Below, piece after piece: positions 28,856 through 37,946 of a DNA stretch of 38,155 nt. Origin of the DNA: an uncultured Clostridia bacterium. Lineage in GTDB: Bacteria > Bacillota > Clostridia > Oscillospirales > Acutalibacteraceae. Where the stretch lies: positions 1 to 38,155 of the forward strand of contig CANQLX010000013.1 of the NCBI GenBank assembly GCA_947624835.1, read 5' to 3'. A model generated the notes under the pieces. It ran no database searches. It worked only from the letters and a program-made list of their open reading frames with translations, and was not told the DNA's origin. Position 1 is the first letter of the stretch. Each line of letters begins with the position of its first letter. Position numbers and translations under genes: made by a program.

Positions 28856-29554
28856 TTAAGAAACAGGCTGCATCTGGAATGCAATACCGGTAGTTCTTAA
28901 GCTGTCGCCACCAACCTTAAATGTACCTCCGGCTCCACCGTAATTACCGTCCTCAACAAAATCGTTACTCAAAGCAGTCCTAACATTTCCGCAGCCTTCC
29001 ATTACAACAGAACCGCTTACAGAATATCCGTCAACCATGTTGATCTCATAATTCAAATAGAAGAAAAGACCTCCCCTTGTCGGATCACTTTCACTTCTGC
29101 CGATCTTCTGCTTGGATATTGAAAATACAATATTATCAACACCGCTGACATTCAATTCAGCTTCAGGAATTAAATTTCCTGACGCATCCTTGACATTTGT
29201 TTTATATCTCATATTTGTCGAATCCGGATCTATCATCATATAATCCACTTCATCCGTAGTACTCAGAATAAGAGAATCAACGCCGCCCGGAGTAAGAAAA
29301 TTTGTAGCACCGCCGCCGCTTGCTGTAGAATCAATGAAATACAGCGACTCACAAACACTCGCATTATCATATATATAATTTTCAATCTCGGTTACCTTTT
29401 GCTGTTCCGTAGCGAGTACAGATGCTGACGAATAGTTATTCATAGTCGAAGCAAATATTCCAACACCCATACCTGCCGTTATTGACATAATTGCCACGGT
29501 AACAACAAGCTCAACAAGAGTAACACCCTTCTTACTAATGAATTTACGCATCAT
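28856..29554 (-). CDS. Type IV prepilin-like protein B
   Basis: A 232-residue protein with a class III signal: SKKG then VTLVELVVTVAIMSITAG. The peptidase would cut after Gly10, leaving Val at +1 and Glu15 at +5, the residue needed for pilus assembly. The hydrophobic helix that follows is the assembly spine. The rest is a beta-rich globular domain with two cysteines (one in ASVCESLYF, one in MEGCGNVR) that could form a disulfide. A length above 200 suggests a minor pilin or adhesin more than a bulk subunit. Two adjacent ATG codons exist; AGGTGA lies four bases before the first and seven before the second, so the second (29551) may be used. It follows prepilin A by nine bases. Confidence 0.88.
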   Translation of the reverse strand: MMRKFISKKGVTLVELVVTVAIMSITAGMGVGIFASTMNNYSSASVLATEQQKVTEIENYIYDNASVCESLYFIDSTASGGGATNFLTPGGVDSLILSTTDEVDYMMIDPDSTNMRYKTNVKDASGNLIPEAELNVSGVDNIVFSISKQKIGRSESDPTRGGLFFYLNYEINMVDGYSVSGSVVMEGCGNVRTALSNDFVEDGNYGGAGGTFKVGGDSLRTTGIAFQMQPVS

Positions 29555-29563
29555 ATACTCACC

Positions 29564-30145
29564 TTAGCTTTCTTTATACGGAATAAAGCTTTCGTTCATA
29601 ACAGTTCCCTGTGCAGACTCAAAACTTGTTATAAGCCTTATACCCGGTATTTCAGGATCAACTGCCGTTCCCATTGTTGTCACATGATTCCTTACCTCGG
29701 GAATCAATGTATACTGGAAAGATACACCACTAACAAAAGCCGGCTGGAATCCGGTTGTTATGTTACCGGTTGGCGGTACGAATACGGCACCCGGTATTTT
29801 CTCCTCAACAGCAGCCGTAATAGCCGTTCCGTAATCATCTCCGGAGCCATCGCTGTTAAGTATCTGCTGAACAAGGTCATTGGCAGAAATTCCTCCGTCA
29901 TCAATAAGTGCACCGGTATTCCTTATTCTCTTGATTGTAGTGAAAACAATATCATTAACAGATGCATTAAGCAGACCTGCCCTGTTCTCATCAGCATTAT
30001 AAACCGTTGTTGTATATCCGCTTACCATTGCACCGAGTGTCGAAGCAAAAACTATAACAATTATCGCAACACCGATAAGTATTTCCACAAGGGACATACC
30101 TTTCTTTGATCTGAACTTATTTCTATGTAATATCAATCTTTTCAT
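29564..30145 (-). CDS. Type IV prepilin-like protein A
   Basis: A 193-residue prepilin with signal RSKKG then MSLVEILIGVAIIVIVFA: cleavage after Gly16, Met at +1 and Glu21 at +5. The hydrophobic helix is followed by a region starting GYTTTVYNADENRAGLLNAS and a mostly beta-type domain without cysteines. The frame is open to 30214, but the ATG at 30145 has AGGAGG nine bases upstream and gives a normal short leader. It is the first gene of a two-pilin unit with its own promoter at 30221-30248, downstream of the assembly genes. Whether it is the main subunit or a minor pilin is not clear. Confidence 0.88.
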   Translation of the reverse strand: MKRLILHRNKFRSKKGMSLVEILIGVAIIVIVFASTLGAMVSGYTTTVYNADENRAGLLNASVNDIVFTTIKRIRNTGALIDDGGISANDLVQQILNSDGSGDDYGTAITAAVEEKIPGAVFVPPTGNITTGFQPAFVSGVSFQYTLIPEVRNHVTTMGTAVDPEIPGIRLITSFESAQGTVMNESFIPYKES

Positions 30146-30220
30146 TATCAGGAACCTCCTGTACGATGTATTTTGCAGACACAGAATCCACACACCTCTA
30201 AGTGTAATATACATACTTCA

Positions 30221-30410: not shown

Positions 30411-31649
30411 TCAAGTATTAGTATCAATTACACCATAGATACCGAACATCGGAAGAATCATAGATACAACAACTGTACCGACAACTACACCAATTACAAC
30501 CGTCATTACAGGTGTCATTGCATCGGTAAGCTTTTGAGTTGATTCGTCACTCTGCTCTTCAAAAAGCTCAGCCATCTTATACAGTGAATCGCCAAGCATA
30601 CCGGATTCCTCACCGACACGAACCATCGATACAAGTATCGGGTCAAATACAGGATGCTTTGACATTGCTTCATTTATAGTCACACCTATCTGTACGTCAT
30701 CAATAACCGCCTGTATCTGCTCCTTTACATATATATTCGGAACAGCATCACGTGCAAGTCCCATAGCTTTATGTATAGGTATACCTGCATCGGTAAGTGT
30801 TGACATAAGACGGCTGAAACGTGCAAGTGAACTCTGACGTATAATAGGACCGACAAGCGGAATTTTTAAAGACACCTTTGCTATTGTCATCTGAAATTCT
30901 TTGTTATTCTTCTTAAGTGTAACAAATGAAAAACCGATAATGAAAACTACAATTAAAATCAGCCACCAATAACCTATAAGAATATCCGAGAATGCCATAA
31001 CTGCAAGGGTCAGTCCCGGAAGCTCTGCACCAAACGAACCATACGTATCCTTAAAGGTCGGAAGAACGAAGCCGCAAAGGATTATAATAAGTGCAACAAC
31101 AAGAACGATAAGGAATATAGGATATGTAAATGCACTTCTGAGCTTACCGGAAAGTGCGATATCTTTCTTACATATAAGCGCACACTGCTGGAAAGCCGAA
31201 TCAAGACGACCGTTTGCTTCACCGGCCTCTATAATACTTATATATACACCGGGAAATCCTTCAAAGTTCTTCATAGACTGTGACAACGTAAAACCGTTAT
31301 ACAGATTCTCATTGATTTCACGAAGAATCTTCTGCATTGCAGGATCCTTCTCGGAGTCAATCATAATCTGCATTGACATTGAAAGGTTAATACCCGCCTT
31401 CATCATCATACCAAGCTGGTTAAACAGCATAAGCAAAGCTTTTTTCTTAAGCTTTTTGTTATGAACGTCTCCGCTCATATCCATCTGCCAGATACTTGTG
31501 GGGACGTCAGAACCTGAAGCTTCTTTAATATCCTGAACGATAAGACCCTTCTCACGAAGCAACGCTACAGCCTGACTCTGTGTGTCGGCCTCGATCGCAC
31601 CCTCTTTTTTCTGATTTCTGGCATTCATCGCCACATATTTATATTTCAA
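30411..31649 (-). CDS. pilC: Type IV pilus inner-membrane platform protein PilC
   Basis: A 412-residue member of the GspF/PilC family, the membrane platform on which PilB and PilT act to add or remove pilins. Two cytoplasmic T2SSF helical domains are present. The first (about 72-195) carries FNQLGMMMKAGINL and the FPGVYISIIEAGEANGRLD signature; the second (about 275-400) carries FSRLMSTLTDAGIP and a MVRVGEESGMLGDSL repeat of the same motif. Hydrophobic helices lie near 176-197, 212-243 and 380-403. An N-terminal segment MKYKYVAMNARNQKKEGAIEA is typical. It follows pilT by 13 bases. Confidence 0.95.
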   Translation of the reverse strand: MKYKYVAMNARNQKKEGAIEADTQSQAVALLREKGLIVQDIKEASGSDVPTSIWQMDMSGDVHNKKLKKKALLMLFNQLGMMMKAGINLSMSMQIMIDSEKDPAMQKILREINENLYNGFTLSQSMKNFEGFPGVYISIIEAGEANGRLDSAFQQCALICKKDIALSGKLRSAFTYPIFLIVLVVALIIILCGFVLPTFKDTYGSFGAELPGLTLAVMAFSDILIGYWWLILIVVFIIGFSFVTLKKNNKEFQMTIAKVSLKIPLVGPIIRQSSLARFSRLMSTLTDAGIPIHKAMGLARDAVPNIYVKEQIQAVIDDVQIGVTINEAMSKHPVFDPILVSMVRVGEESGMLGDSLYKMAELFEEQSDESTQKLTDAMTPVMTVVIGVVVGTVVVSMILPMFGIYGVIDTNT

Positions 31650-31662
31650 GACAGCTCACCCC

Positions 31663-32709
31663 TTATCTCCTGGCATCAGTGTCGCCGATATCAAAGTTCC
31701 ATGCCTTAGCAACTTGTTCGGTTATAAGTCCCTGTGCAAGCAAATTATCTATACTCTTGCTCATGGTAATCATACCGTACTGCTGTCCGAGTTGTATTGA
31801 CTGTTGTATATTAGCTACCTTGTTTTCACGAATAAGGTTACTGATAGCTCCGGTAACAAACATTATCTCAAATGCTGCAATTCGTCCGCCGGTTGCTCTC
31901 GGCAGAAGCCTCTGTGAAATAACAGCCTTAAGAGATGTCGAAAGCTGCACTCTTATCTGCTGCTGCTGGTCCGGCGGGAAGATATCAACAAGACGGTCAA
32001 TCGTCTTTGCTGCACCCTCAGTATGAACTGTTGAAAATACCAAGTGACCTGTTTCTGTTGCCGTAAGTGCAATCTGAATGGACTCACGGTCACGCATCTC
32101 TCCGACAAGTATAATATCCGGGTCCTCACGCATTGCAGCTCTCAATGCCATAGGATATGAACGGCTGTCCAAACCTATTTCTCTTTGGTTTATGATACAA
32201 CGCTTCGGAGTATGCAGGAACTCAACAGGATCCTCTATTGTGATTATATGTTTGCTCTTGTATTTGTTAATTTCATTTATAAGAGCTGCAAGAGTTGTAG
32301 ACTTACCCGAACCGGTAGGACCGCACATAAGAACAAGTCCCGAATTGAGGTCAAGGGTCTTTCTTATTGAATTAGGAAGACTCAGAGTTGAAAGCTCAGG
32401 AACAACACTGTTGATTACACGGAGAACCAACGATGTGCCGTTACGCTGTCTGAAAGCATTTGCTCTGAAACGTCCGCATTCACCAATTTCAACTGCGGCA
32501 TCCGCCTCACCTGTCGCAAGAAAGGTCTCAAACCTTGATTGGTTGAGCACTGCCTTGATAATTGCTGTAACCTCGGCCTCCTTCAAAGCCGGGTCATTTG
32601 TAAAAAATGCATTACCATGCAAACGGTATGCCGGATGATTACCCGATGCAATATGTATATCGGATGCCCCCTTACCGACAGCTTCTTTTACAAGGCTATA
32701 AAAATCCAT
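31663..32709 (-). CDS. pilT: Type IV pilus retraction ATPase PilT
   Basis: A 348-residue hexameric ATPase that disassembles the pilus, giving retraction and twitching or DNA uptake. Present are Walker A GPTGSGKS (130-137), the Asp box around IITIEDPVEFLH, Walker B DIILVGEMRD (198-207) and the His box from His222 to His229 (GHLVFSTVH). The C-terminal part keeps QRLLPRATGGRIAAFEI, close to the conserved PilT retraction region. The N-terminus (ASDIHIASGNHPAYRLHG) and length match PilT and not PilB. A retraction ATPase in the cluster argues for a dynamic pilus and not a simple secretion pseudopilus. Confidence 0.95.
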   Translation of the reverse strand: MDFYSLVKEAVGKGASDIHIASGNHPAYRLHGNAFFTNDPALKEAEVTAIIKAVLNQSRFETFLATGEADAAVEIGECGRFRANAFRQRNGTSLVLRVINSVVPELSTLSLPNSIRKTLDLNSGLVLMCGPTGSGKSTTLAALINEINKYKSKHIITIEDPVEFLHTPKRCIINQREIGLDSRSYPMALRAAMREDPDIILVGEMRDRESIQIALTATETGHLVFSTVHTEGAAKTIDRLVDIFPPDQQQQIRVQLSTSLKAVISQRLLPRATGGRIAAFEIMFVTGAISNLIRENKVANIQQSIQLGQQYGMITMSKSIDNLLAQGLITEQVAKAWNFDIGDTDARR

Positions 32710-32770: not shown

Positions 32771-34477
32771 TCAATCATTTGAGATCGTCATGTCAATATA
32801 CTCCTCGTAGGAGGTAAGACCCTCAAGCACGTCTCTTCTGACGTTTTCCTTCATAGGTATCATACCCTCCTTAATTGCCATATCTCTAAGCTCATCTGTG
32901 CTGACTCCCTGTGTAACAGCCCTTTTAAGAGTTGTTGTCAGAAGCATTACCTCATGAACTGCTATACGTCCCTTATATCCCTTCATATTACATTTCTCGC
33001 AGCCAACCGGGCGATAAAGTGTAATTTCCTCATTTTCATCAAGACCGAGACCAATTCGCTGGTTCTGGTCGGGATTATACGCTTCTTTACAGTTTGTGCA
33101 AAGCCTTCTTGCAAGCTTCTGGGCTATAATTCCAAGAAGTGCTGACGAAACCATGTATGGCTCAATTCCCATATCTACAAGACGTGCGACGGAGCTCGGT
33201 GCATCGTAGGTATGGAGGGTTGAAAGCACAAGGTGACCTGTGATAGCCGCCTGTACAGCTATTCCCGCAGTTTCACCGTCACGGATCTCACCGATCATTA
33301 TGATATCCGGGTCCTGACGGAGTATACTACGCAGAGCGGAGGCAAACGTAAGTCCCGCCTTTTCATTTGTCTGCACCTGTGTTATACCCTGCTGGATCAT
33401 TTCTACAGGGTCCTCAACCGTTATAATATTAATATCCTCGCCCATTACCTCATGCAAAGCCGTATACAGTGTGGTGGATTTACCCGAACCGGTAGCACCT
33501 GTTACAAGAATAATTCCTCTGTGGCTCTTTACAAGGTGGTCGAATTTTTCAAGATTTTCGGGAAGGAAGCCTATATTATCCTTTTTAAGCTCCATTCCGA
33601 GCGAGGTCGTAATACGCATAACTATCTTCTCACCAAACAGGCAGGGAAGAACAGAAATACGGAAGTCAATATCACTTCCTCCTACACGGTATTTAATACG
33701 ACCGTCCTGAGGTATACGTTTTTCAGCTATATTCATATTGCCTATGAACTTAATACGTGATGTTACCGAGGGAATAAGTTCGGCTGCCGTTTCCATATAT
33801 ATCTGCAGCTTACCGTCAACACGGAACCTTATCCTCAGGCAGGACTCCATAGGTTCTATATGAATATCGGATGCCTTTGTAAAAATTGCTTCCTCAAGCA
33901 TACTGTTTACAAAACGGATAATCGGCTGATCATTTGCCGAGGCCTCCTGAGCAGCTGCCGCTTCAGCCTCAAGCTCTGCCTTCGACTTACCTCCGCTTTT
34001 GGATTCAAGAAATTCCTTAGCATCGTCAATGGCTTTTTTGGCTGCATAAAGCTCACGGAACTTACCTGCTATCTTTGAGTTTTCGGCGATAACAGGCATA
34101 ATCTTAAGCTTTGTCGTTATACCGATATCTTGTATTCCGTTATAGTTTGTAGGGTCAGCCATAGCAACGGTAAGAAAACGTCCGTTTTTTTCTATAGCTA
34201 TTGCCATATGCTTCTGTGCTATATCCTCTGGTATAATTCCGGATATATCCTCAGGGATCTGTACATCATCAAGATTTATATAGGGGATTCTGAGCTGCTG
34301 CTCGAGTGCCCTGCAAACCTGCAATTCGGTTACCACTCCGTCCTCAATAAGAATATCCGCAACACGCTTGCCGCTTTCGCTTTTTTTTTGCTTTGTCAGT
34401 GCTTCGTCAAGCTGTTCATCGGTAATAGCTCCGGCATCAATAAGAATTTGTCCTATTCTAAGACGATTTGCTTTCAT
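32771..34477 (-). CDS. pilB: Type IV pilus extension ATPase PilB
   Basis: A 568-residue assembly ATPase of the GspE/PilB family. The N-terminal GspE-N domain (1-145) begins RLRIGQILIDAGAITDEQLDEAL, a fold that in some relatives binds cyclic di-GMP or connects to PilM. A Lys/Ala/Glu-rich linker (150-182) follows. The motor domain has Walker A GATGSGKS (327-334), Walker B DIIMIGEIRD (391-400) and the His box GHLVLSTLH. A four-cysteine zinc site is complete: Cys460, Cys463, Cys493, Cys496. It is 15 bases after pilD and 61 bases before pilT. Confidence 0.95.
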   Translation of the reverse strand: MKANRLRIGQILIDAGAITDEQLDEALTKQKKSESGKRVADILIEDGVVTELQVCRALEQQLRIPYINLDDVQIPEDISGIIPEDIAQKHMAIAIEKNGRFLTVAMADPTNYNGIQDIGITTKLKIMPVIAENSKIAGKFRELYAAKKAIDDAKEFLESKSGGKSKAELEAEAAAAQEASANDQPIIRFVNSMLEEAIFTKASDIHIEPMESCLRIRFRVDGKLQIYMETAAELIPSVTSRIKFIGNMNIAEKRIPQDGRIKYRVGGSDIDFRISVLPCLFGEKIVMRITTSLGMELKKDNIGFLPENLEKFDHLVKSHRGIILVTGATGSGKSTTLYTALHEVMGEDINIITVEDPVEMIQQGITQVQTNEKAGLTFASALRSILRQDPDIIMIGEIRDGETAGIAVQAAITGHLVLSTLHTYDAPSSVARLVDMGIEPYMVSSALLGIIAQKLARRLCTNCKEAYNPDQNQRIGLGLDENEEITLYRPVGCEKCNMKGYKGRIAVHEVMLLTTTLKRAVTQGVSTDELRDMAIKEGMIPMKENVRRDVLEGLTSYEEYIDMTISND

Positions 34478-34492: not shown

Positions 34493-35398
34493 TTAAAAAT
34501 TAAATAAGTTAAGATATAATTGTACCAAAAATTTTAAAAGGTCAAACAAAACAATATATATTGCTATTGCTGCCGTAATATAAGGACCGAACGCAAGATA
34601 CGAACCAAATCCCACATTTCCGTCATCTTCTTCTGCCGTTTCACCGGCACCGTACTCTTTTTCCTCAGATGTATCCGGAACATTTCCGGTATCAGGAATA
34701 GAACCCCCTTCTCCGGACTCCTCGGAATTCCTGCCGTATACAATTTTTGATATAATTATTATTGTCACAAAAAATACAGTAGCAGTTATTATTGAAATAA
34801 TAAAAGTGGTAATTGTACCCGGAAAACCCGTCAAAATACCGCCCGCCAAAAAAAGCTTTACGTCCCCGAAGCCCATTCCGTCACGCTTATATACCAACAT
34901 TCCTATAAAATCTATAAGCAGCATTGAAGCGGCACCTATTCCGGCACCGGCGAGCGGAGACCACCACGCACAATGGAATATATTATATCCTCTCACTATA
35001 TCATATACGCTTATTACTGCTGCAAGTATTCCTAAAATAATTGTAAACTGATCAGGTATTATCTGATATTTTATATCTGCCACAGCTATAAGCAGGCAAT
35101 CAAAAATTATCAATGCAAGGACACAGAAATATATATCGTATCCTTTATTAAACTGAAGCCTGCACAGTGCCAAACAAACCGACATTAATACAGAAACAAA
35201 TATTCCTGATGGCAGATACTTTACTCTCTTGCCGTTCAGGAGTTCCTCTGACGGGGTTTCATTATAATCGCATAACCATTTTGCAGGTATGCGATTAATA
35301 ATGTAGTAACCCAACGCCGTCAAAGCAAATCCGAGCGGCAAACACAATATCACCCATATTAATCCCACAGGCGAACTCAAATAACTTAGCGGCTGCAT
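34493..35398 (-). CDS. pilD: Type IV prepilin peptidase, lacking the methylase cysteines
   Basis: A 301-residue membrane aspartic protease (A24 family) that removes prepilin leaders. The two catalytic Asp residues are visible: Asp108 in AVADIKYQIIPD and Asp179 in GMGFGDVKL. About eight hydrophobic helices surround them. The N-terminal cytoplasmic loop (about 36-62) holds a single Cys43 where the classic enzyme has four zinc-binding cysteines (two CxxC) needed for N-methylation, so methylation of the new pilin end is doubtful. A second oddity is a polar loop of about 43 residues (222-264), Glu/Gly/Thr-rich, before the last helices. It lies between pilO and pilB with gaps of 27 and 15 bases. 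Confidence 0.92.
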   Translation of the reverse strand: MQPLSYLSSPVGLIWVILCLPLGFALTALGYYIINRIPAKWLCDYNETPSEELLNGKRVKYLPSGIFVSVLMSVCLALCRLQFNKGYDIYFCVLALIIFDCLLIAVADIKYQIIPDQFTIILGILAAVISVYDIVRGYNIFHCAWWSPLAGAGIGAASMLLIDFIGMLVYKRDGMGFGDVKLFLAGGILTGFPGTITTFIISIITATVFFVTIIIISKIVYGRNSEESGEGGSIPDTGNVPDTSEEKEYGAGETAEEDDGNVGFGSYLAFGPYITAAIAIYIVLFDLLKFLVQLYLNLFNF

Positions 35399-35425: not shown

Positions 35426-36118
35426 TCAGGCTGCTGAGGACTCGCCGCTTACCGATTCGGCAGCTGAAGTATCATTAGCCTGATTCTTTGTTACATCGAA
35501 GAAGTACAGTCGAATTTCAAGGGTTGATACATACATCCTATCTGCACTTGTTGTGGCCTGCTTTGAACCCTCTGTTGCCTCCTGCTCAGTAGGTGTGGTT
35601 GCTTTTTTATCCTCTTCGGTAACGGAAATCTTACTTACAAAATAGGAACCGTTAGATTCAGACTCGAAGTATTTCAAGGTTTCTATCAGTTTCTTTTCTG
35701 TTGTTGTGAACGAAAACCTTATAGTTGTCACATAGAGCGGGTCACCGGTAGCTGACACTCTTCCCTCGCTGTCCGCCTGTCTTTCTGCGATTGAAAGACT
35801 TGAAAGATCATATCCGAGATCCTTAAGCATATCCCTTATATCGTCAGCGGTTTTCTCTGCATTGATAGTAAGTGCAGCATTTTTTTCCTCACACTCTTTT
35901 TTCATATTGTCTATGGATGTCTGAACTTCTTTGGCACGTGAAAGATAATCCTTATACATATTGATCTGTGCATCGGCAGACGCATGATCAGAATTATACT
36001 TGTCTATTTTCTGGGAAAACGGTATCTGCACAGCGACAAGAAATATGATACATACCACCACTATAAGCAAAATTGCCCATACAAATTTAGGAATTGTTAT
36101 AGATTGTTTTTTATCCAT
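35426..36118 (-). CDS. pilO: PilO-like alignment protein
   Basis: A 230-residue bitopic membrane protein with PilO architecture: short cytoplasmic N-terminus, one membrane helix (about 11-31), a coiled coil (about 36-85, KYNSDHASADAQINMYKDYL begins it), then an alpha/beta domain with FSFTTTEKKLIETLKYFESES, which fits the ferredoxin-like domain of PilO. A Thr/Glu/Ala-rich insertion follows (KATTPTEQEATEGSKQATT), then STLEIRLYFFD, and a low-complexity tail ending GESSAA. Sequence identity to proteobacterial PilO is low, so the call rests on layout and on position after pilMN. It would pair with the PilN part of that protein outside the membrane. Confidence 0.8.
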   Translation of the reverse strand: MDKKQSITIPKFVWAILLIVVVCIIFLVAVQIPFSQKIDKYNSDHASADAQINMYKDYLSRAKEVQTSIDNMKKECEEKNAALTINAEKTADDIRDMLKDLGYDLSSLSIAERQADSEGRVSATGDPLYVTTIRFSFTTTEKKLIETLKYFESESNGSYFVSKISVTEEDKKATTPTEQEATEGSKQATTSADRMYVSTLEIRLYFFDVTKNQANDTSAAESVSGESSAA

Positions 36119-36143: not shown

Positions 36144-37946
36144 TCAGGCTGCACTGTTATCTGAGCTTGCATCAGCCGCAGTACTGCCTTCGGGTGTCTG
36201 AGAAGCCTCACCGCCTGTTGTACCCTCAGCGGTTGTACCTGTCTTGCCGGCAGCCTCCTCAGCCTTGAGAATTGTCTCCTCTGTTACATCAAGAATAATA
36301 TCGCCCCTTATTCTCTGAATCGGATTAGTTCCCTCAGTTGATTTATCAACAACCGCATTAATACTCATAGTATCCTCAGGTTTAAAGTAACCTGTGTCCA
36401 CAAGCTCATTCTTGAACTTGATGAAGTCATCGTAGCTGTCAACATCAACGCTTGTTGTAACCGTATGATTTGTACCGTCAACGTCAAATGCCGTACAGGA
36501 TACAACCTTATCTCTTACCTGAGCGAAAAATTCGGTCGTTACATCTGCAGACTTAAGGCTTGTATCGGGGAGCATCTGAAGATTGCTTTCGATATTTGTA
36601 AGCTCCTCCTTCCATTGCTTTTCGTCCTTAATAAGCTGTTTAGCGGAAGCATATTTACTGTTGTTAAGCTCATTATTATCGTTGTTTTCACGCATAGCGA
36701 GTGCACCCCACCATCCAAGAACAGCCACCATCCATATAGCCGCTGCAACGCCTATTCCGGTGGTTATCATCTTGCCGAGCTTTGCTGTACTGTCGTTAGC
36801 CATTGCGGTGAGGACATTTGCTTCACCCATAAGAAGGTTTGCCTCTGAGGGCGGCATTGTGAGAATACCGTTAAGTGTTATAAACGAAGCAGTATCGTAA
36901 TTCTTCTCAGCAGCGGAATTATCCGCTGTAGGCGGCAGTGTTCCGCCTGTAAAAAGTCTTGTTACATTTTCTATAGGAGCAGTAAGTCCTACCTGTCGGC
37001 AATAGTTAGCTATGTTCGGAAGCTTTGCAAGAGCATCAACCAATATAATCTCATCTACATCGAGATGTTTCTGAGACATAACCAATCTCATGTTTCTTAC
37101 AACTTCTTGTGCAGCCGTATCAAGCATCATCATTGTCTGTTTGCGGGTATTTGCGGACTTACACTTATTACATACACCAAGACCTTCCTGACGTATAAGC
37201 TCAATAGCACCGAGCTTACTGAGGCCGAACTCAAGTGAAAACAGCTCTGCTATATCCTCAAGCACACTTGCTATTGACTGTTGATATACAGGTGCACCGT
37301 TATGCAAAAGCACAATACGGGTTGCCACGAAGTCCATGCTGATGAGTGCAACAGCTCTCGTAGCGGAGTTGATATCCGACTTAGCGGTATAAAGCATACC
37401 TGCTATAGGCGGAACTATTTTCACAACATTTACACCTTCAGCAGCAAAGGAAGCTCTCAGGTTAGTAAGCAGCTCCGTCTTTATAGCAAAAAGAGATGCG
37501 GATATTTCATCGCTCTTGCTTGCCTTACCGTATTGCTGACCATACTCAAAGTTAAGGATAGTATACTTCTCAACCTCCTGATGCAGGACCTGCTCTGCCT
37601 CAACTCTCGCAAAGGTCGGGAGGAGTTTTTCCTTTGCCGGGGCGTGTTTATACTCCTTACTTATAAGTACGTCCTCATCCTCTATGCATATAAATACATC
37701 ACCCAACACTATGCTTGCACTTTCAGCACAGCGTTTAACAAAAGCCGCCAGCTCATCTCCCTTCTCATAGGGATGATCCTTAAGAGATTCATTCAACTCA
37801 AAGATCTGAGGAACGGAAAAAGTTGAAGCCATTGAAGGCCTTTTGTTTTTTACTGCAAAGCCACTGCCCTCAGGTTTATCATACTTAGCCGGGGTAAGAA
37901 TAAGCATTCCTCTGGTTAATTGCAGTATAGTAGCTGTTGTTTCCAT
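36144..37946 (-). CDS. PilM-PilN fusion, type IV pilus alignment protein
   Basis: A 600-residue protein joining two parts usually encoded separately. Residues 1-370 resemble PilM, the actin-like cytoplasmic scaffold: FSLEFGLSKLGAIELIRQEG, ALISMDFVATRIVLLHNGAPV and DEIILVDALAKLPNIANYCRQVG match its second ATPase half, while the first phosphate loop is degenerate. A Cys259/Cys262 pair lies within this part. A membrane helix follows at about 394-416. Residues 420-555 look like PilN: a coiled coil (SAKQLIKDEKQWKEELTNIE) and a ferredoxin-like domain (TTSVDVDSYDDFIKFKNEL). A Thr/Glu/Ser-rich tail ends DNSAA. No separate pilN or pilM occurs nearby. It heads the pilus operon. Confidence 0.85.
   Translation of the reverse strand: METTATILQLTRGMLILTPAKYDKPEGSGFAVKNKRPSMASTFSVPQIFELNESLKDHPYEKGDELAAFVKRCAESASIVLGDVFICIEDEDVLISKEYKHAPAKEKLLPTFARVEAEQVLHQEVEKYTILNFEYGQQYGKASKSDEISASLFAIKTELLTNLRASFAAEGVNVVKIVPPIAGMLYTAKSDINSATRAVALISMDFVATRIVLLHNGAPVYQQSIASVLEDIAELFSLEFGLSKLGAIELIRQEGLGVCNKCKSANTRKQTMMMLDTAAQEVVRNMRLVMSQKHLDVDEIILVDALAKLPNIANYCRQVGLTAPIENVTRLFTGGTLPPTADNSAAEKNYDTASFITLNGILTMPPSEANLLMGEANVLTAMANDSTAKLGKMITTGIGVAAAIWMVAVLGWWGALAMRENNDNNELNNSKYASAKQLIKDEKQWKEELTNIESNLQMLPDTSLKSADVTTEFFAQVRDKVVSCTAFDVDGTNHTVTTSVDVDSYDDFIKFKNELVDTGYFKPEDTMSINAVVDKSTEGTNPIQRIRGDIILDVTEETILKAEEAAGKTGTTAEGTTGGEASQTPEGSTAADASSDNSAA

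Follow-up and report, generated by a model that had tools for sequence, protein, structure and literature searches.

The locus analyzed here bears on how force and signals pass from the cytoplasmic motor to the membrane platform of the type IV pilus, and it raises this question in a particular form: does one gene encode both PilM and PilN of such a platform as a single chain, and, if so, what has become of the nucleotide site of PilM and of the N-terminal peptide with which PilN docks onto it? The gene, here called pilMN, lies in a stretch of 38,155 nucleotides (the window) from an uncultured bacterium related to Ruminococcus, and is listed with its neighbors in Table 1.

Table 1. Features of the pilus locus in the window, with residue numbers for the parts of PilMN.
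Feature	Positions	Strand	PilMN residues	Basis
pilMN	36144..37946	(-)		ATG start, one ORF, 600 aa
PilM half			~1-362
Junction EANLLMG	36825..36845	(-)	368-374	conserved island 5' of membrane helix, where the PilN docking peptide would lie
Membrane helix	36702..36770	(-)	~393-415	hydropathy and model helix
PilN-like domain			~430-558
Low-confidence tail			569-600
pilO	35426..36118	(-)		hhalign against 14 other PilO (identified by eye): 98.2, E 3.2e-14
pilD, prepilin peptidase	34493..35398	(-)		PF01478, 54.8 bits (cut-off 26.5)
pilB, extension ATPase	32771..34477	(-)		PF00437 and PF05157 (Pfam) and NF053729, over cut-off
pilT, retraction ATPase	31663..32709	(-)		TIGR01420, 436.3 bits (cut-off 319.1)
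pilC, platform protein	30411..31649	(-)		PF00482, 178.7 bits, over cut-off
Prepilin (minor pilin-like)	29564..30214	(-)		PF07963 and TIGR02532, over cut-off
Prepilin (minor pilin-like)	28856..29554	(-)		PF07963 and TIGR02532, over cut-off

Identity of the two halves

The initial annotation read the protein as PilM, a membrane helix and PilN in one chain, and proposed Pfam profiles and structure prediction as checks. Neither PF11104 (PilM) nor PF05137 (PilN) matches the window protein at E 5 or any protein of the genome, and PF11104 matches only one of 53 members of the lineage (E 0.0091). By the letter of the Pfam check the claim therefore fails, and more sensitive tests, namely profile–profile comparison and the predicted fold, have to carry it. 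No separate PilM or PilN is recognized by Pfam in the genome, which is 85% complete. Because standard profiles miss both halves, the platform protein of this clade goes unannotated.

The structure of the protein was predicted using AlphaFold from 53 sequences, giving a mean pLDDT of 74.6 and a pTM of 0.58 (the remaining four models, 57–59). The model shows the succession anticipated in the initial annotation: an actin-like half, a helix spanning residues 390–427 that includes the membrane segment, and ferredoxin-like strands with a helix at 483–554. The best 19-residue hydropathy window begins at residue 393; pLDDT falls below 50 at residues 378–393, near the junction. The two halves are unequally conserved, with a majority fraction across 53 genes of 0.84 in the PilM half versus 0.47 for residues 416–555.

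The NCBIfam profile TIGR01175 (pilM) matches the window protein at residues 193–318 (E 2.6e-4, 20.1 bits, cut-off 133) and 28 of the 53 lineage members (best E 3.7e-7), in no case above cut-off. This match is not specific to PilM, because two MreB proteins score better in a search across the same genome (E 9.8e-7 and 1.6e-5, against 7.9e-5 for PilMN). These two other matches (C3 and C5) are MreB by both Pfam and NCBIfam, and the idea of a second, separate PilM in the genome was rejected.

Comparison of alignments with hhalign, in which E-values are those of single comparisons, was specific. When 26 diverse lineage members were aligned with 36 split PilM, the probability was 99.3 (E 2.4e-20), rising to 99.5 (E 1.3e-22) for the PilM half alone; a less diverse alignment of the lineage (A1) gave 96.8. 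Crossed negative controls gave 0.1 and 0.4. In comparisons limited to two or three sequences per set, the PilM half scored 97.2 and 97.8 against PilM, 57.9 against FtsA-like proteins and 0.6 against MreB. Alignment A1 scored 9.4 (E 0.0035) against six canonical fusions alone and 91.1 against six degenerate ones. The model gave a similar result: among its ten best Foldseek matches in the PDB, nine are PilM entries and one is a chain from the model of a pilus machine, the best being PilM 5eoy (E 2.0e-17), and PilM entries with bound PilN peptide (5eou and 2ych) also belong to the ten. FtsA follows further down, from 1.2e-13. Sequence searches of the PDB returned nothing over cut-off with the window protein (best PilM 2ych, E 0.22) and no pilus protein with three profiles, that of the lineage recovering no PilM. 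In fold and in kinship, the PilM half is nearer to PilM than to other actins.

For the second half, alignment A1 compared with 26 split PilN gave a probability of 92.2 (E 5.8e-7) over residues 430–558, and the more diverse lineage profile gave 95.3 (E 2.3e-8). In a control, the PilN half scored 96.4 against PilN and 60.5 against PilO; PilN and PilO are related folds, and the call is therefore less sharp than that for PilM. The PilN half is thus predicted to consist of a membrane helix followed by a ferredoxin-like domain, and is kin to PilN.

These results bear out the proposed architecture: the window protein is a PilM-like actin fold, a membrane helix and a PilN-like ferredoxin domain in a single chain. 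A 1:1 stoichiometry of PilM and PilN, also proposed in the initial annotation, follows because both sit in one chain; the same architecture is no evidence for the change in signaling that was coupled to it.

Conservation of the fusion

Relatives were collected by a scan seeded with a pattern, in which each species was represented by one genome and which detects only close relatives. The scan yielded 55 relatives of 52–85% identity, recorded as uncultured Clostridia, Clostridiales, Ruminococcus or Ruminococcaceae and in one case as ‘bacterium’. Alignment A1 left out three of the 55, two that start at a contig end (L020 and L037) and one that matches from residue 5 and has no start by our rule (L034). 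Two relatives, L032 (385-2667) and L040 (129-2327), are 760 and 732 residues long, compared with 581–632 in the other complete ones. In all 55, PilMN is a single open frame, followed downstream by pilO and then pilD. The order pilO-pilD-pilB-pilT-pilC is found in all 29 loci with more than 9 kb of downstream sequence, in 26 of them with both prepilins.

This uniformity argues strongly against an artefact of assembly or annotation. The related idea, that an internal start yields free PilN in addition, might draw on Met364, which is invariant (53/53) and stands just before the junction; however, a ribosome-binding energy of -5 or better precedes it in none of the 53 genes, compared with 98% of 51 true starts, and an internal start there was rejected. 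We consider either explanation hardly credible.

A profile of the lineage was also run over 120 genomes of the same GTDB family and found matches in 10, one of which is the genome of the window. Of the remaining nine, eight are single-frame fusions with PilO- and PilD-like genes downstream, as judged by eye; a stop counted in one of the matches (L063) is the gene's own stop codon. In the last of the nine (L061), contig ends truncate the gene, which was omitted from the junction and tree sets.

The operon and the type of system

The gene pilMN heads a block of eight genes on the (-) strand, in the order pilMN-pilO-pilD-pilB-pilT-pilC followed by two prepilins, and Pfam recognizes all of these over its cut-offs except pilMN and pilO. 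The pilO product, compared in Table 1 with other PilO, scored 79.3 against PilN and 0.4 against PilM in hhalign controls. Profile PF04350 (PilO) matches two of the 53 lineage members (best E 4.3e-4); the PilO alignment (A3) comprises 37 of 55 available rows.

A rival reading is that the protein is GspL of a system resembling type II secretion, and not a pilus PilMN. A system of that kind is recognized by a secretin in the genome and by an operon that contains no PilT. GspL has the same domain order, its profile TIGR01709 weakly matches five of 53 relatives (best E 3.9e-4), the neighboring pilO product weakly matches NCBIfam GspM (E 2.6e-4, below cut-off), and Foldseek returns the cytoplasmic domain of GspL (from E 1.2e-7). 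Yet PilM structures match the model better than GspL by about ten orders of magnitude, more than half of the lineage matches the pilM profile TIGR01175 as described above (though this profile also takes MreB), PilT is encoded in the operon, and no secretin (PF00263) was found in the genome, at 85% completeness. We therefore regard a GspL as very unlikely. The absence of a secretin is expected because the cell has a single membrane. With both halves in one chain and pilO, pilB, pilT, pilC and pilD beside them, the locus is that of a type IVa pilus with a PilMN fusion.

The product of pilB scores 589.5 bits against TIGR02538 (pilB), below the cut-off of 675.65. Its N-terminal domains are MshEN and an NCBIfam c-di-GMP motif domain, each over cut-off, and pilus extension is therefore probably controlled by c-di-GMP. 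In the pilD product, the PF01478 peptidase domain is the sole match over cut-off. Its N-terminus reads CDYNETPSEEL (a CDYDEEP-like sequence in divergent relatives), and the usual CxxC pairs are present there in the operons of L067, L106, L107 and L110; the methylase part of PilD may have been altered or lost in the window's clade.

Away from the operon, two more neighboring prepilin genes (L118 and L119; contig C15, 13921-15002) encode strong GFxxxE motifs and are probably the major pilins. The same genome has a ComEC-like protein on contig C65. At the operon, no Rfam RNA reached the gathering threshold in the window, L003, L005 or L031, and one tRNA did so in L014.

Fused and split forms in other genomes

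For comparison with more distant loci, TIGR01175 was run over a family sample of 120 genomes and, at the level of the class (presumably Clostridia), over 341 genomes, of which 117 match at E 1e-14 or better. We inspected 52 loci by eye: the top 10 and the top 30 from these searches, and 12 regions that were selected for the most part because of their long frames. They comprise 36 split PilM, 12 fused PilMN, three FtsA-like genes (L075, L114 and L115, for which Pfam ranks FtsA first and PilM second) and one locus that was not used. Fused forms are not rare, and the ratio of 12 to 36 is not a rate, given how these 12 regions were selected. By our rule, 10 of the 36 split loci have no PilN, leaving the 26 split PilN used here.

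The 12 additional fused genes lie beyond the window's lineage, two of them in the window's own family (L067 and L074) and ten in other families (L084, L097 and L106–L113). Their domain order is like that of the window protein, and in most a PilO-like gene follows, as judged by eye. Together with nine sequences of the window's lineage they make up the 21 fused sequences analyzed below.

The nucleotide site

The initial annotation had noted a degenerate first ATP loop. This is correct, and the degeneration extends to all three motifs of the site, namely phosphate 1, phosphate 2 and adenosine: the window's lineage has Q-x-T, S-x-D and D-A in place of DxG, DxG and GG. The altered residues are themselves fixed, Q9, T11, S203, D205 and D304 each being present in 53 of 53 members. 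Among split PilM, the three motifs are retained in 34, 33 and 32 of 36 cases (three thus lack phosphate 2), compared with 7, 6 and 4 of the 21 fused sequences, of which five (L058, L060, L064, L065 and L108) have no residues at phosphate 1, their start perhaps having been read too late. The six fused proteins with phosphate 2 differ from the window protein in keeping a textbook docking peptide as well.

By simple rules, six of the 21 fused proteins have both nucleotide site and peptide, 14 have neither, and one (L065) has the peptide only. A canonical peptide and phosphate 2 are either both present or both absent in 20 of the 21 fused proteins and 23 of the 26 split pairs (the exceptions among the latter being L069, L070 and L116). 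The tree gives too few independent pairs, and for this reason we do not claim a joint decay of site and peptide. In two split loci of the same family (L072 and L073), PilM lacks the nucleotide motifs and PilN has VSLLPES for the usual motif.

A PilM without ATP may nevertheless be functional, to judge by analogy with Thermus thermophilus, where according to PMC6325625 PilM K26A does not bind ATP, still binds the motor PilF and stimulates it together with PilN, and PilM without PilN does not stimulate PilF. The mutant offers a precedent for an ATP-less PilM half.

The junction peptide

The segment between the actin-like half and the membrane helix stands where the N-terminal peptide of PilN would be, as the initial annotation stated. 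It forms a conserved island: N370 and G374 are present in 53 of 53 members, L371 in 52, A369 in 51, E368 in 49 and L372 in 48, and the mean majority fraction is 0.89 for residues 368–374, compared with 0.67 for 363–367 and 0.63 for 375–392. Residues 368–381 (36804-36845, minus strand) form an imperfect repeat, EANLLMG-EANVLTA, in which ten of the 53 members lack residue 375, where the second copy begins. A low-confidence hhalign alignment sets the PilN motif on this second, less conserved copy (N377) and not on N370.

Resemblance to the PilN peptide was measured with a score matrix derived from 24 of the 26 split PilN N-termini, mostly of the form [RKN]-D-x-N-[LF]-[LF]-x; the PilN of L072 and L073 have no motif match and were left out of the training. 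The matrix is partly circular, because the pattern picked its training stretches. The window junction scores -1.2 and is the sixth-best site of the protein. The junction region holds 55 of the 594 possible places, and by a rough estimate a rank of 6 is often expected by chance; with this score and rank, the likeness is not significant on its own. The initial annotation had found EANLLMGEAN to resemble the PilN peptide. Its place and conservation suit a docking peptide [RKN]D-x-N-[LF]-[LF] before the helix; its score does not, and the likeness is weak.

The case for the window junction rests on its conservation and on other fused lineages in which an RDINLLP-like peptide occupies the same place. 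Six of the 21 fused proteins (L084, L097, L108, L109, L112 and L113) have a strong docking peptide of this kind between PilM and the helix, scoring 13.9–19.8 and in each case the best site of its own protein. The best site is also at the junction in L065 (7.5) and L111 (6.4), giving eight of 21 in total, and the junction site is second-best in L067, L107 and L110 (0.6–0.7). It ranks 4 or 5 in L058, L060 and L064 and 11 in L062; in L057 the best site of the region lies elsewhere and GNFL comes second. In L059, L063, L074 and L106, the region's best site (ranks 11, 3, 24 and 10) is a stretch other than the junction, and L106 lacks a peptide of this kind. Seven of eight divergent members of the window's lineage have N-[LF]-[LMA] at the junction, a pattern drawn up post hoc: L057 GNFL, L058 GNLL, L059 NNLA, L062 DNFL, L063 NNLM, L064 NNLM and L065 VNFL, the exception being L060 with IDFL. 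A motif RD(MILF)N(FYW)FS has been proposed as conserved in monoderm PilN by a review (PMC6916266), which calls it C-terminal. In the split PilN of the present loci, a motif of this make-up is at the N-terminus.

The junction may instead be a conserved linker, or the end of PilM, that has no docking role and resembles the peptide by chance. The score and rank of the window junction would suit such a linker, as would the short helix at 366–369 in the model and the strong conservation of the PilM half as a whole, which makes a conserved end unremarkable. Against this, residues 368–374 are more conserved than the flanks on both sides, the post hoc pattern recurs at the same place in the divergent relatives, and other fusions keep the full motif. 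A mere linker is a plausible account, though one we are inclined to doubt. With moderate confidence, we regard EANLLxG as a putative docking peptide that has been eroded.

Relation to known systems and proposed working

A fused PilM–PilN is already known in Clostridioides difficile (PMC6916266, citing Melville and Craig 2013), and the name PilMN appears in PMC6143707. As far as this literature describes it, the C. difficile protein resembles that of the window in being one chain of a monoderm type IVa pilus with PilO. PulL/GspL of type II secretion is also known as a fusion of this kind, and PMC4471445 calls the PilMN complex an orthologue of GspL; PulL/GspL shares with the window protein the actin-like cytoplasmic domain, single membrane helix, ferredoxin-like outer domain and a PilO/GspM-like neighbor. 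The window system differs from it in having PilT, in that a secretin was not found, and in being nearer to PilM in sequence and fold. The split PilM–PilN of T. thermophilus and Pseudomonas aeruginosa (PDB 2ych and 5eou) share the PilM fold but, unlike the window protein, are two chains, and their PilM entries contain ATP or ADP. In Ruminococcus flavefaciens 007, a PilM-like gene forms part of a pilus cluster, according to PMC3672088.

The fusion as such is therefore not new, and the window protein is a divergent member whose PilM half lacks nucleotide motifs. What is added here is the loss of all three motifs, the conserved island EANLLxG, and the textbook peptide kept by six of 21 fused proteins. 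In the open-licence literature consulted (including PMC3244431, PMC6958937 and PMC8389850), we found neither a survey of fused forms nor any comment on retention of the docking peptide or loss of the nucleotide site in fusions.

We think it likely that pilMN is a fusion of PilM and PilN of a monoderm type IVa pilus platform that works as follows. Loss of the motifs suggests that the PilM half no longer binds ATP; it would serve as a rigid adaptor that keeps PilB and PilT, the motor ATPases, beneath the membrane. Because PilM and PilN are one chain, motor strokes would be passed directly to the outer PilN/PilO layer, and to PilC. EANLLxG would replace the PilN docking peptide and may pack on its own PilM half or on that of a neighbor in the ring, which would hold ring and membrane in a set geometry; docking might also define the state in which the motor is stimulated by PilM.

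Tethering makes recruitment needless, yet six of 21 fused proteins, products of at least two fusion events, keep the peptide, which suggests that docking itself matters. We tentatively propose, as a possibility that we would not put as high as an even chance, that docking in cis or swapped between neighbors sets the working state of the ring, and that in the window's lineage this has gone further, to a pseudo-actin free of nucleotide whose peptide, though eroded, is fixed; its platform would be held permanently docked, with PilB and PilT as its only drive. PilMN is interesting mainly as a test case: with the nucleotide motifs gone from a fused protein, both the recruitment of PilM and its cycling of ATP would seem dispensable in at least one lineage, and other fusions, which retain the peptide, allow the purpose of docking to be examined cleanly.

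Origins of the fusion

A tree was calculated from the PilM halves of the 21 fused proteins and the 36 split PilM. The nine fused sequences of the window's lineage form one clade (support 100/100), and the others fall into lineages that lie apart in the tree: L084, L097 and L109; L108, L112 and L113; L067, L074, L106, L107 and L110; and L111. All degenerate fusions form one clade on the best tree, which is unsupported (45/65). The fused or split label changes at least three times on the best tree and at least twice by well-supported branches. A single clade of all 21 fused sequences is rejected (p-AU 0.000165), but is not rejected (p 0.28) once the three sequences of family f27 are removed, a set defined with the tree already in view; together these values support the statement of at least two origins of the fusion and nothing beyond it.

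The clearest example is family f27, where the split locus L095 is sister to the fused L084, L097 and L109 (support 100/100). The PilM of L095 ends NVLGLAYREER and its PilN begins MRRDINLLPDRYRD; the junction of the fused L084 reads NVLGLAFRDQKNKNRDINLLPEGYRD, that is, PilM, a few residues, and then PilN from its first residues. This sister pair shows the docking peptide carried over into the fusion.
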